From Chloroflexota bacterium (lineage in GTDB: Bacteria; Chloroflexota; Limnocylindria; P2-11E): DNA of 41,468 nucleotides. The notes beneath the pieces were generated by a model. The model did no database searches, was not told the origin of the DNA, and saw only the letters and a list, made by a program, of their open reading frames with translations. The DNA lies in the NCBI GenBank assembly GCA_005883775.1, contig VBEU01000056.1, forward strand, positions 1 through 41,468, written 5' to 3'. Position numbers and translations under genes: made by a program. Positions 5,643-40,906 of this stretch are shown here, one piece after another. Position 1 is the first letter of the stretch. Each line of letters opens with the position of its first letter.

Positions 5643-6295
5643 CCCATCAGGGCTTTGCGGACCTCGCTCTCGGACGCCGTCGGCGAGAAGACCATGACAC
5701 GATCGCCGACCTCCAGCTTGGTGTCGTCGTCAGCATGCATGAGCTTGCCTTTGCGAATGATCCCGCCCACAAGCGCGCCGCTCGGTAAGCGCAGACTCCC
5801 GACGCTCTTTCCCGCGGGCGGCGTCCCGATGGCGATCTCCGCCTCGATCAACTCGTTCGCGGAACCGGCGAGTGACATGAGCGGCATGAAGCCTCCCGAC
5901 GGGAGCTCCTGTTCGATGACGTTCATGAGTACGCGCGTCGATGAGATGGTCTCGTCGATGCCGAGCGTCTTGAAGACGATCTCGTTCTTCGGGTTGTTGA
6001 CGCGCGCGATCACGCGGGGCGTGCGGCAACGTATCTTCGCCAGCTGACAGATCACAAGATTCTTCGCATCGTCGCCAGTAACAGCGATGAGCGCGTCGGC
6101 GCGGCTGCAGCCGGCCTCCATCTGCGCGCGTCCCTCGTCCGCCGGGGCATTCATGACGATCGAGCCGAGCCGCTCCTGGACGAAATTGGCGCGGCGTCGA
6201 TCGGCTTCGATGATCGTGACCTCGTGTCCTGACTCGAGGAGAGCCTGCGAGAGATGGAACCCCACCTCGCCCGCGCCAGCCACGACGAAGTACAT
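5639..6295 (-). CDS. TrkA/KtrA-type RCK protein (TrkA_N + TrkA_C)
   Basis: A 218-residue regulatory subunit of potassium transport. Residues 1-125 are a Rossmann TrkA_N domain with the nucleotide loop VVAGAGEVGFHLSQ and an acidic end to strand 2 (IIEAD), compatible with NAD(H) or adenine nucleotide binding. Residues 140-218 match TrkA_C, including GKSVGSLRLPSGALVGGIIR and LEVGDRVMVFSP. Such proteins gate TrkH/KtrB channels in response to nucleotides or c-di-AMP, but no channel gene is present; the neighbours are KimA-type permeases. It starts 16 bases after the stop of a second trkA-like gene, so the two are probably co-transcribed. Its stop overlaps that of the convergent kimA-like gene in a shared CTAG. 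Confidence 0.92.
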   Translation of the reverse strand: MYFVVAGAGEVGFHLSQALLESGHEVTIIEADRRRANFVQERLGSIVMNAPADEGRAQMEAGCSRADALIAVTGDDAKNLVICQLAKIRCRTPRVIARVNNPKNEIVFKTLGIDETISSTRVLMNVIEQELPSGGFMPLMSLAGSANELIEAEIAIGTPPAGKSVGSLRLPSGALVGGIIRKGKLMHADDDTKLEVGDRVMVFSPTASESEVRKALMG

Positions 6296-6311
6296 CTTTA
6301 CAGCACCATCC

Positions 6312-6827
6312 TTATCGGGCCTTCACCGGGGCCTTCAAGGGCTCGTTGACCATGTCGGCCTCATGCGCCAGCGCTTTCCGCATGAGGACCTCCCCGACCT
6401 CGCGGTCTTCCTGCAGCATCGCGTGAAGGAGCGTACCGAGGATCGTCGTCCGGGAGAACGTGTTGATCCCCATCTCGCGATAGGTCTGCGCGCGCACGGG
6501 GTCGTTCACCTTGGCAATCACCTGTTTTACCCCGAAGATCTTCTGAGCGATCTGCGCCGCCATCAGATTGCGGTTGTCCCCTTCAGTGAGCGCCAGAAGA
6601 GCATCGGCCCGTTCGATCCCAGCTTGGCGAAGGACTTCGAGATCCGTGCCGTCACCCAGGATCGTTTCGCCTTTGAACGACGTGGGAAGATGCTGGAACC
6701 AGGCGCGCTCCGCGCGCGCTGGACTCGTCGACGCGATGTCAACGACGCTCACGCGATGGCCCTCGGAGTCGAGGAGTCCCGCGAGAAACCCACCCACCCG
6801 GCCGCAGCCGACGATGATGACGTTCAC
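6312..6827 (-). CDS. TrkA_N-only RCK protein
   Basis: A 171-residue Rossmann protein with the glycine loop VIIVGCGRVGGFLAG at its start, VVDIAS after strand 2, ILGDGTDLEVLRQAG, and ALTEGDNRNLMAAQIA. It matches TrkA_N over about 140 residues, and the tail (ALAHEADMVNEPLK) is too short for a complete TrkA_C domain. The ORF track begins at 6863, but the GTG at 6827 is better: it has AGGAGGA just upstream, it overlaps the uspA stop as GTGA, and the family begins with this beta strand. Paired TrkA-like genes such as this could form a hetero-oligomeric ring (inference). It lies between uspA and the full-length trkA-like gene in one operon. Confidence 0.88.
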   Translation of the reverse strand: MNVIIVGCGRVGGFLAGLLDSEGHRVSVVDIASTSPARAERAWFQHLPTSFKGETILGDGTDLEVLRQAGIERADALLALTEGDNRNLMAAQIAQKIFGVKQVIAKVNDPVRAQTYREMGINTFSRTTILGTLLHAMLQEDREVGEVLMRKALAHEADMVNEPLKAPVKAR

Positions 6828-38860: not shown

Positions 38861-39397
38861 TTAGCCCTGTTCCACAAGGTTCGCGGCGGCTTCGTCGAGA
38901 GACTGCTCGATCAGGGCGCGATGCTGCTCGGCGTCGACCTCGCGGCCCAGCACGCGGCTCGCCGCGAGGACGACCATGCCCGCGAGCTCCGATCGGAGCT
39001 GCGCGAGCGCCTGGTCATGGAGCTGGTTCGCATCTTCGCGGCCGCGTTCGCGGATGCGATCGGCCTCGGTTTTCGCCTGCGTGCGAATATCGTCCGCCGC
39101 GACCTCGGCGGCCTGCGTCGTCCGCTCGGCGATCGCCTGCGCCTCTCGCCGGGCCTCCGCGAGGAGACGCTCGATCTCGGCCTTGAGCTTCTCGCGATCG
39201 GCCTTCGCCTGCTCGGCCAGCGCCAGACCCTCACGGATCCTGCTGGCGCGGGTCGCGAGCATCGTCGTGATCGGGCCCCACAGCAGTCGTCGCATGAAGT
39301 AGAGGAGCAAGAGGAAATTGACGACCGAGACCAGCACCCAGAACGGGTGCACGGTCGGTACGAAGACCTCTTCCTGGAATCCGGGGCTGAACAGCAC
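38861..39397 (-). CDS. atpF: ATP synthase b subunit
   Basis: A 178-residue peripheral stalk subunit with one N-terminal helix (VLVSVVNFLLLLYFMRRLLWG) and a long charged helix (EQAKADREKLKAEIERLLAEARREAQAI) that dimerises. Only one b-type gene is present, so the stalk is a homodimer. The GTG start has its ribosome-binding site GGAGGT 7 bases upstream, but that lies in the 3' arm of a perfect hairpin (39403-39422), suggesting limited translation relative to atpE. Confidence 0.95.
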   Translation of the reverse strand: MLFSPGFQEEVFVPTVHPFWVLVSVVNFLLLLYFMRRLLWGPITTMLATRASRIREGLALAEQAKADREKLKAEIERLLAEARREAQAIAERTTQAAEVAADDIRTQAKTEADRIRERGREDANQLHDQALAQLRSELAGMVVLAASRVLGREVDAEQHRALIEQSLDEAAANLVEQG

Positions 39398-39402
39398 TTA
39401 CA

Positions 39403-39422
39403 GCACCTCCGCCAGGAGGTGC
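39403..39422 (-). promoter_or_regulatory. Hairpin sequestering the atpF ribosome-binding site
   Basis: On the transcript, GCACCTCC and GGAGGTGC form a perfect 8-bp stem with a TGGC loop. The 3' arm contains GGAGGT, the atpF ribosome-binding site, 7 bases before its GTG. It lies in the only sizeable gap (62 bases) of the operon after atpE. Expected effects are lower b-subunit synthesis and perhaps 3' protection of atpE mRNA (inference). Confidence 0.7.
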
Positions 39423-39459
39423 ACGTATTGGTTCCGACGAGTGGAACGAGACGGACCCA

Positions 39460-39687
39460 TTACGGGTGCGTCAGGAAGATGAGCAGGATCCCCACGACGA
39501 GCGAGAGCACGCCGAGCCCTTCGGCCAGGCCCGCACCGAGGATGAGGTTATTCCGAATGAGGGGCGCCGCATCCGGATTGCGGCCGATCGCCTCGGACGA
39601 CTTCGCTGTCGCGATGCCCAGACCGATACCCACCCCAAGGACCGCGAAGCCGACGGCGATGCCGGCGGCCAGCCAACCGAGATTCAT
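39460..39687 (-). CDS. atpE: ATP synthase c subunit
   Basis: A 75-residue two-helix ring subunit. The glycine-rich first helix has GVGIGLGIATAKSSEAIGRNPDAA with the loop RNP, and the second helix holds the ion-binding Glu in GAGLAEGLGVLSLVV. The residues that mark Na+ rings (Gln in helix 1 and the ES/ET-x-x-Y set) are not seen, so a proton-driven enzyme is expected. Its ATG overlaps the atpB stop (ATGA) and has a strong exposed ribosome-binding site. Confidence 0.96.
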   Translation of the reverse strand: MNLGWLAAGIAVGFAVLGVGIGLGIATAKSSEAIGRNPDAAPLIRNNLILGAGLAEGLGVLSLVVGILLIFLTHP

Positions 39688-40610
39688 GCGTGCGATTCCT
39701 CCTTTGTCGTTGTCGCGTGGTTTTCGCCCGATTCGCCATGCGCTTCGTGGGATTCCGTCGCGAGGACGAAGTAGAGCAGCGTCAGTATCGAGAAGATGAC
39801 GGCTTGGAGCAGACCGATGAACATCTCGAACCCGGCGAACAGGAGAAGAACGGGAATCGCGACCACGTAGAGCACTGCGGCCATCACCACGAGCATCACC
39901 TCGCCGCCAAAGACATTTCCCCAGAGTCGCGCGGTGAGCGTCAGGATCCGGATGACCTCAGCGAGGAACTCGATGAAGCCAACGAATATCAGCAGCCCTC
40001 CCAGAAAGGGACCCTCCTTGAGCGATTCGAGGTTCAGCCAGCGCTTGAAGTAGCCTCGACCGAGCGTTCGAATGCCCTCTGCCTGATAGCCAACGAAGGC
40101 GACGATGGCGAGACCGAGCGTGATGTGGTAGTCGGCTGTGGGCGCATGCAACAGAGGGATCTGCCCGACGAGGGGCACCACGCTCAACCAGTTTGAAAGA
40201 AGGATGAAGAGAAAGAGCGTCCCAACCAGGGGGACGTACTTCGCCGCTGCTCGCCCGCCGGTGTCAACGACGAAGTCGTGAAGCGTTTGAACGGTGACTT
40301 CTAGGGCTCCCTGGAGTCCGCTGGGTACCAGCGTCAACCTTCGGGTGCCGACGAAGGAGAGGGCAATAAGGAGCGCCATAACGATCCACATCGTGAGGTG
40401 CGAGTTCGAGATCGAAAGGTCCTCACCAAATGGGTGGAAGAGGGGCTCGCCGGACAGCATGCGGAGAATCCGCTGGGGCGTGATGTCTGGCCAGGTGGGT
40501 AGTCCAAAGACGATCCAGCCGACGCCGACCATGACCAAGTCGATGGCGACTAGGCCCGCGAGAAGGGTCATGGGCGGAAGTGACATGAGCGACCTATCGA
40601 TCGTCCGCAT
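39684..40610 (-). CDS. atpB: ATP synthase a subunit
   Basis: A 308-residue membrane stator. The essential Arg is in LTLTARLWGNVFGGEVMLV, next to LIFVGFIEFLAEVIR. APTADYHITLGLAIVAF is the conserved helix-3/4 region, and the C-terminal helices end in a His/Glu-rich tail (ESHEAHGESGENH). ATG 40610 is chosen: it overlaps the atpZ stop as TGATG; the TTG at 40613 in the ORF track is less likely. Confidence 0.96.
   Translation of the reverse strand: MRTIDRSLMSLPPMTLLAGLVAIDLVMVGVGWIVFGLPTWPDITPQRILRMLSGEPLFHPFGEDLSISNSHLTMWIVMALLIALSFVGTRRLTLVPSGLQGALEVTVQTLHDFVVDTGGRAAAKYVPLVGTLFLFILLSNWLSVVPLVGQIPLLHAPTADYHITLGLAIVAFVGYQAEGIRTLGRGYFKRWLNLESLKEGPFLGGLLIFVGFIEFLAEVIRILTLTARLWGNVFGGEVMLVVMAAVLYVVAIPVLLLFAGFEMFIGLLQAVIFSILTLLYFVLATESHEAHGESGENHATTTKEESHA
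39697..39705 (-). promoter_or_regulatory. Strong ribosome-binding site of atpE
   Basis: AAAGGAGGA on the transcript, 9 bases before the atpE ATG, inside the end of atpB. It is the best Shine-Dalgarno sequence of the operon and fits the need for many c subunits per enzyme, in contrast to the masked site of atpF. Confidence 0.75.
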
Positions 40611-40906
40611 CAACGATCTTCCTCATCCTCACCGCTCTCGCGGCGCCGCTCACGCTCTTGTATCTCGCTGTCCCAGCGCTGGCCTGCCGCCCGAGCCGAC
40701 TCTGTCGCCGTTCCCATTGGGCGCGAGAGGTAGTCGCGCAGCAAAGCGGCCATCGCGCCGGCGCCGACGATGAGGCCGAGGAGGATTCCGATCAGGAGTC
40801 CCCAGGGCTTGCTGCCGAGACGATCGTCGATCGCGTTGCCGCCGAACGTACCGGCAAGCAGAGGAACACCGATCGCCACTGCGACCTGCAGCCCCATCTT
40901 GAGCAC
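40610..40906 (-). CDS. AtpZ/AtpI-like small membrane protein
   Basis: A 98-residue protein with two helices (GLQVAVAIGVPLLAGTFGGNAIDDRLGSKPW and LLIGILLGLIVGAGAMAALL) and a charged tail. It matches the AtpI/AtpZ group that precedes many F-type operons and helps c-ring assembly or Mg2+ uptake. Start GTG 40906, with ATG 40897 as an alternative. The 162 bases upstream (40907-41068) separate it from the corA-like gene, hold no gene that I can support, and should contain the operon promoter; a TAAACT element on this strand is too weak to call. Confidence 0.82.
   Translation of the reverse strand: MLKMGLQVAVAIGVPLLAGTFGGNAIDDRLGSKPWGLLIGILLGLIVGAGAMAALLRDYLSRPMGTATESARAAGQRWDSEIQERERRRESGEDEEDR

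Follow-up and report, generated by a model that had tools for sequence, protein, structure and literature searches.

How is atpF translated when 62 nt separate its GTG start from the atpE stop codon and when its Shine-Dalgarno (SD) sequence lies inside a stable stem? The question arises on a contig of 41,468 nt (the window; VBEU01000056.1 of assembly GCA_005883775.1, a Chloroflexota bacterium), whose minus strand carries an atp operon (Table 1). In G008 and G004, of the same genus, exactly this segment is missing and the atpE stop overlaps the atpF start as TAATG (CCCGTAATGCTG); the segment is also absent from atpE-atpF in all other genomes with a readable junction. It appears to be a small dispersed insertion element, here called family A, which was inserted exactly at the overlapping atpE stop and atpF start and may serve as a portable translational-coupling relay, a reading to which we give about two chances in three. 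Upstream of atpB, in the position of atpI, stands a 98-aa open frame (window 40610-40906, minus strand) that has no NCBIfam match.

Table 1. Features of the atpE-atpF junction and the adjoining genes in the window
Feature	Position	Strand	Remarks
atp operon		minus	gene order atpB, atpE, atpF, atpH, atpA
atpB	40613-39684	minus	
atpE, F0 subunit c	39460..39687	minus	TIGR01260, 47.5 bits, above cut-off
Whole spacer (the feature proper)	39398-39462	minus	two hairpins and short reading frame
Bridging short reading frame (putative)	39398..39460	minus	ATG...TAA, MGPSRSTRRNQYVHLLAEVL, 20 codons, read from sequence; starts in the atpE stop (TAATG), ends directly before the atpF GTG
Family A dispersed element	39399..39459	minus	61 nt, two hairpins, between atpE and atpF; R1 match 80.4 bits, E 8.9e-16
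Hairpin 1	39429..39459	minus	directly after the atpE stop codon; arms 39459-39451 / 39437-39429; two mismatches in the window copy
Hairpin 2, masking the atpF SD	39399..39427	minus	inner perfect 8-bp stem 39422-39415 / 39410-39403, plus outer TACG/TGTA pairs
SD GGAGGT of atpF, supplied by the family A element	39405..39410	minus	7 nt before GTG 39397-39395
atpF, F0 subunit b	38861..39397	minus	GTG start; TIGR01144, 98.9 bits, above cut-off

The masked Shine-Dalgarno sequence of atpF

The perfect 8-bp stem closing on GGAGGT that the initial annotation had described is indeed present on the minus strand (39403-39422), where GCACCTCC and GGAGGTGC flank a TGGC loop and the 3' arm contains the atpF SD. 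With its four outer pairs (TACG/TGTA) this hairpin, like the others discussed here a prediction, has a calculated stability of -17.6 kcal/mol, and the predicted unpaired probability of the SD is at most ~0.01 in all contexts tried. Among 20,000 shuffles, 34 produced an exact upstream complement of the SD 8-mer, and of the 116 GGAGG sites in the window just 2 lie within a comparable stem. Long-range folding of a 441-nt region gave a stability not above that of shuffled sequences, and hairpin 2 still formed there. By predicted unpaired probability and by the covariation described below, hairpin 2 holds the downstream SD in its stem, as is characteristic of coupling hairpins. The strong site of atpE, AAAGGAGGA, is present as annotated, but its supposed exposure is less clear-cut, the predicted accessibility being middling (0.1-0.9, depending on context).

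The suggestion that heavy translation of atpE opens the hairpin holds in part. Upstream translation is the best explanation for opening, but with ~38 nt between the atpE stop and the beginning of the masked stem, translation of atpE alone is not expected to melt it, whereas translation of the short frame between the two genes would be.

A two-hairpin element with covarying stems

The masking hairpin proves to be the right half of a 61-nt element with two hairpins, so that the earlier description captured this half and missed the second hairpin, the dispersal of the element and the short reading frame that bridges the genes. In the family A consensus, hairpin 1 reads GAATGnCGA-CTCGTTnCACTCG-TCGnCATTC and is followed by an A and then by hairpin 2, TACGT-GCACCTCC-TnnC-GGAGGTGC-TGTA. 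Compensatory changes in relatives, which had been named as a check on the stem, were found across copies of the element: both stems covary, with two-sided changes in 15 of the 21 stem pairs among 15 distinct copies (9/9 in hairpin 1 and 6/12 in hairpin 2), a level reached in 0 of 500 shuffles. Standard pairing is retained in 92.7% of the pair cells of these copies, which no shuffle reached, and sliding the stem partners left at most 5 pairs with two-sided changes.

Orthologous copies before trkA in G009 and G005 show compensatory pair differences in stem 1. The secE-nusG copy has GCAATCCC/GGGATTGC in place of the usual hairpin 2 arms, and a separate AAGGAG follows; the stem is thus kept even where the SD is not. 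Three copies in G024 have a separate SD outside the stem, and masking of the SD is therefore not universal.

No Rfam covariance model matched the region, the window or the other copies, apart from a tRNA in L056, and neither a terminator nor a promoter was found at the element site. By inspection, the ends GAATGnCG... and ...GGTGCTGTA do not form terminal inverted repeats of the MITE type. TAA or TAG, both also stop codons, stands on both sides of the element in about 9 of 15 copies.

Dispersal, empty sites and loss

A covariance model of the element (R1) detected 16 copies in 12 of the 28 genomes of the family, at most three per genome; the genomes are MAGs of varying completeness, and copies of one element family are related, so that these counts exceed the number of independent events. 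A class-wide search beyond the family with the same model gave one marginal match and no convincing copy, and a pattern scan of ~85,000 genomes found true copies in no genomes other than Chloroflexi MAGs from soil and groundwater, and thus none in mycobacteria. Pattern matches in Opitutae, Omnitrophota and viruses lack stem 1, look like coding coincidences and were set aside.

The copies occupy about 14 different junctions, nearly all outside atpE-atpF and mostly between ribosomal-protein genes. Read from the flanking proteins, they are rplW-rplB (twice), tuf-rpsJ, rplE-rpsZ, rpsH-rplF, rpmJ-rpsM, rpmI-rplT, rpsS-rplV, rplB-rpsS, secE-nusG, atpE-atpF, trk-trkA (twice) and glmM-glmS; a further copy (L044) lies in antisense orientation next to polA, and another (L052) has decayed. 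In 13 of the 16 copies, position 1 of the element adjoins the stop codon of the preceding gene (for the G024 rpsM copy this stop, of rpmJ, was read from sequence), and the next start follows 0-13 nt past the end of the element. Relatives with empty sites mostly have overlaps or gaps of a few nucleotides at these junctions.

All sense copies at a stop except one have TAA or TAG as their left flank, and these flanks suggest TAA/TAG as the target. In the G003 copy the left flank is GTAG and does not coincide with the stop codon, an indication that the target is sequence-specific. Copies are evidently also lost, since the trk-trkA junction of the window (6293-6316, minus strand) retains a remnant, GATAAGGATGG-TGCTGTAAAGATG, of a second family A copy that has undergone an internal deletion; at the same junction G009 and G005 have the element whole. 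Mobility of the RAYT/IS200 type was rejected in view of the absence of the Y1 (TnpA_REP) transposase PF01797 from all 28 genomes, 5 of 14 controls being positive.

A short reading frame between the genes

In nearly every sense copy a frame of 18-23 codons opens with an ATG that lies within or upstream of hairpin 1, and closes with a stop that lies at the next gene or immediately ahead of it. The deviating frames are those of the G024 rpsM copy (31 codons, overlapping rpsM by ~20 nt) and of the decayed copy, which is in G019. In the window copy the consensus internal ATG is lost, and an in-frame ATG overlapping the atpE stop is available instead; relatives have this overlapping ATG as the start codon of atpF. 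Where the loop is one base shorter, in two copies, the frame is a different one, and its end coincides with the next start as ATGA (that of rplF in G020 and of rplT in G024).

A similar peptide, MxTRxTRxHSYVHLLxEVL, can be read in most copies, as would be expected of a gene for a conserved small protein. Between the orthologous trkA copies, however, 5 of 6 changes are nonsynonymous, whereas the adjoining trkA gene varies 13/5/55 by codon position, and the C-termini differ in the frame-changed copies. With nonsynonymous changes dominating, the peptide itself is not what is conserved, and a conserved small protein is disfavoured as the least credible of the explanations considered.

Unrelated inserts at ribosomal-protein junctions

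Ribosomal-protein operons from 26 genomes were surveyed at 16 tabulated junctions, with start codons assigned by homology. Extra spacers were found at 41 junctions, most of them family A or the sequence-unrelated families B and C. A frame was scored as bridging if it starts within -4..+12 of the upstream stop and ends within -12..+8 of the next start. Of the 41 inserts, 32 have a bridging frame; dinucleotide shuffles give 7.3 +/- 2.2, and reversal of the inserts gives 5. The nine inserts that do not bridge include the family A copy in G024 whose frame runs into rpsM. With the ends kept and the middle shuffled, a mean of 25.3 of the 41 still bridge; openness alone is therefore weak evidence, and the positions of start and stop account for much of the signal.

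Among the inserts outside family A (28, the rpoA spacer left out), 23 have a bridging frame, whereas shuffles give 4.3 +/- 1.8. A frameshift introduced by removing one or two bases at the centre leaves only 8 or 6 of these 28 bridged, so that the frame itself counts too. Conserved in G004, G006 and G008 (in L168, L170 and L172), the nearly identical 82-nt rpsD-rpoA spacer has no bridging frame, in contrast to the other junctions, and may be a different regulatory element.

Family B is itself dispersed, with an 81-nt core that forms two hairpins, the first perhaps containing tandem G-A pairs; it is present in 1-30 copies per genome at about 150 listed places in the 28 genomes (e.g., G000:C12:6692-6774), some copies forming head-to-tail pairs (G013:C7, G003:C16, G007:C123). 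The copies scanned have no Rfam match. Among 30 copies surveyed, many lie just after a gene with no co-directional gene next, in gene calls too uncertain for a count, and the family thus seems not to be confined to junctions. Family C (66-72 nt, GTGGTCAT...GGGACGsAGTAR) likewise has two hairpins, its frame bridging from TAA-GTG to TAA-GTG, and was found at rplN-rplX in G003 (L166) and at rpmJ-rpsM in G002 (L165). By eye, an SD-like stretch lies in the 3' arm of the last hairpin in many family B inserts and in one family C insert.

A proposed relay coupling and its alternatives

Coupling by termination and re-initiation drops off within ~20 nt (PMC10666635), so that a 62-nt insert would uncouple atpF unless it were bridged. 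According to the relay model, a ribosome ending atpE at TAA would restart at the overlapping ATG, melt both hairpins while translating the 20 codons of the short frame, and stop at the TAA that adjoins the atpF GTG; the freed GGAGGT would then permit re-initiation there. Between ribosomes, hairpin 2 would re-form and block independent initiation at atpF, which would therefore remain coupled to atpE despite the 62 nt between them. The sequences themselves establish the insertion, its dispersal, the covariation in the two stems, the predicted masking of the SD and the retention of bridging frames in unrelated inserts; re-initiation, melting by the ribosome, the strength of coupling and the way the element moves are what we infer from the arrangement of these parts.

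The view of the initial annotation, an atp-specific cis regulator in which the hairpin reduces atpF output relative to that of atpE and determines the ratio of c to b subunits, possibly in a condition-dependent way, agrees with the masked SD and the covarying stem, but it is very improbable: the hairpin is missing from atpE-atpF in every other genome with a readable junction and the element stands at about 13 other, unrelated junctions, which contradicts a conserved role in c:b stoichiometry. About as improbable is an mRNA-processing or stabilising hairpin of the REP type in long operons. Although the stems are stable and the element immediately follows stop codons, in operons that are long and probably expressed at a high level, such a role leaves the bridging frames and the SD just before the next start unexplained, and the element site has nothing terminator-like.

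A more serious rival, though still unlikely, is a purely selfish repeat, whose hairpins would serve its own mobility as folded DNA or RNA; its persistence at gene junctions would reflect their tolerance of insertions, and the bridging frame and SD would be by-products of the places open to it. The dispersed and patchy occurrence in at most three copies per genome, the stems retained even where the SD lies outside or is altered (L047, L055, L056), and the flanks, with their apparent TAA/TAG target and the G003 GTAG that is not the stop codon, would all suit it. Against it, frames bridge across three unrelated families in dependence on the exact frame, copies with a changed frame still end on the next start, and the orthologous trkA copies have gained compensatory changes after insertion. 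The sequence evidence as a whole is best read as a MIRU-like insertion element that preserves translational coupling.

Comparison with known systems

The closest known kind are the mycobacterial MIRUs, apparently mobile repeats that insert at start codons and whose internal frame is coupled to the gene (PMC12548453, a 2025 review), the likeness being one of description. Like them, family A is a short repeat (61 nt, within ~50-100 bp) dispersed over intergenic sites of one clade, with an internal short frame that overlaps or abuts the flanking genes. It differs in belonging to another phylum, the Chloroflexi, and in occurring as single copies, whereas MIRUs form tandem arrays. MIRUs target DTGA overlaps, while the left flank of family A is almost always TAA or TAG and the window site was TAATG. 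To our knowledge, MIRUs have no marked dyad symmetry, and we know of none with two covarying hairpins and an SD of its own hidden in the second. Family A is thus MIRU-like and not a MIRU, differing in target, covarying hairpins, hidden SD and phylum; what is new relative to MIRUs is the masked-SD hairpins, and their occurrence in Chloroflexi.

Other parallels concern single parts of the arrangement. In the mgtCB operon of Salmonella, the intergenic short frame mgtQ opens a stem that masks the ribosome-binding site (PMC8092293), and family A would by analogy free its stem-held site through translation of a short frame; mgtQ, however, is one native frame of 8 codons with a regulatory role, is not a dispersed insertion and acts via ribosome-destabilising codons (PMC8092293). 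An SD-masking structure of the coupling type within an atp operon, tying a gene to upstream translation, is known from E. coli atpHA (Rex et al. 1994, cited in PMC12548453), although it concerns another junction with native overlapping genes, with neither insertion nor relay frame. Ribosome termination structures are likewise stable mRNA structures immediately 3' of stop codons, but are described as insulating against re-initiation and as depleted where re-initiation is useful (PMC7518266), whereas family A carries a restart codon within the hairpin. REP/BIME units share with it dispersed, palindromic, intercistronic placement directly after genes; family A differs in having a bridging frame and an SD as part of the unit and in the lack of the Y1 transposase from the 28 genomes.

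Insertion into coupled operons

It is tempting to speculate that in this bacterial family several unrelated repeat families converged on one portable adapter, in which a hairpin sits at the stop codon, a short frame bridges the gap and an SD is often hidden in a second hairpin, although we hold this only tentatively, at somewhat less than even odds. If so, mobile DNA could establish itself between overlapping genes of essential operons, such as those for ribosomal proteins and ATP synthase, and keep them coupled, with a relay taking the place of direct coupling at each landing site. Insertion into tightly coupled essential operons would then be survivable when the insert brings its own coupling relay, and such a relay would have arisen outside mycobacteria, and more than once. 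Empty and filled junctions within one bacterial family provide a natural experiment on gene overlaps and protein stoichiometry, and the family A element is a compact candidate part for gene coupling in synthetic operons.

A separate observation concerns the sequence next to the insertion. Over ~750 bp (window 39458-40207, comprising atpE and the 3' half of atpB) the window is 97-99% identical to G008, the flanks being 65-90% identical; this stretch terminates exactly at the family A element and looks like a recombination tract halted at the insertion.
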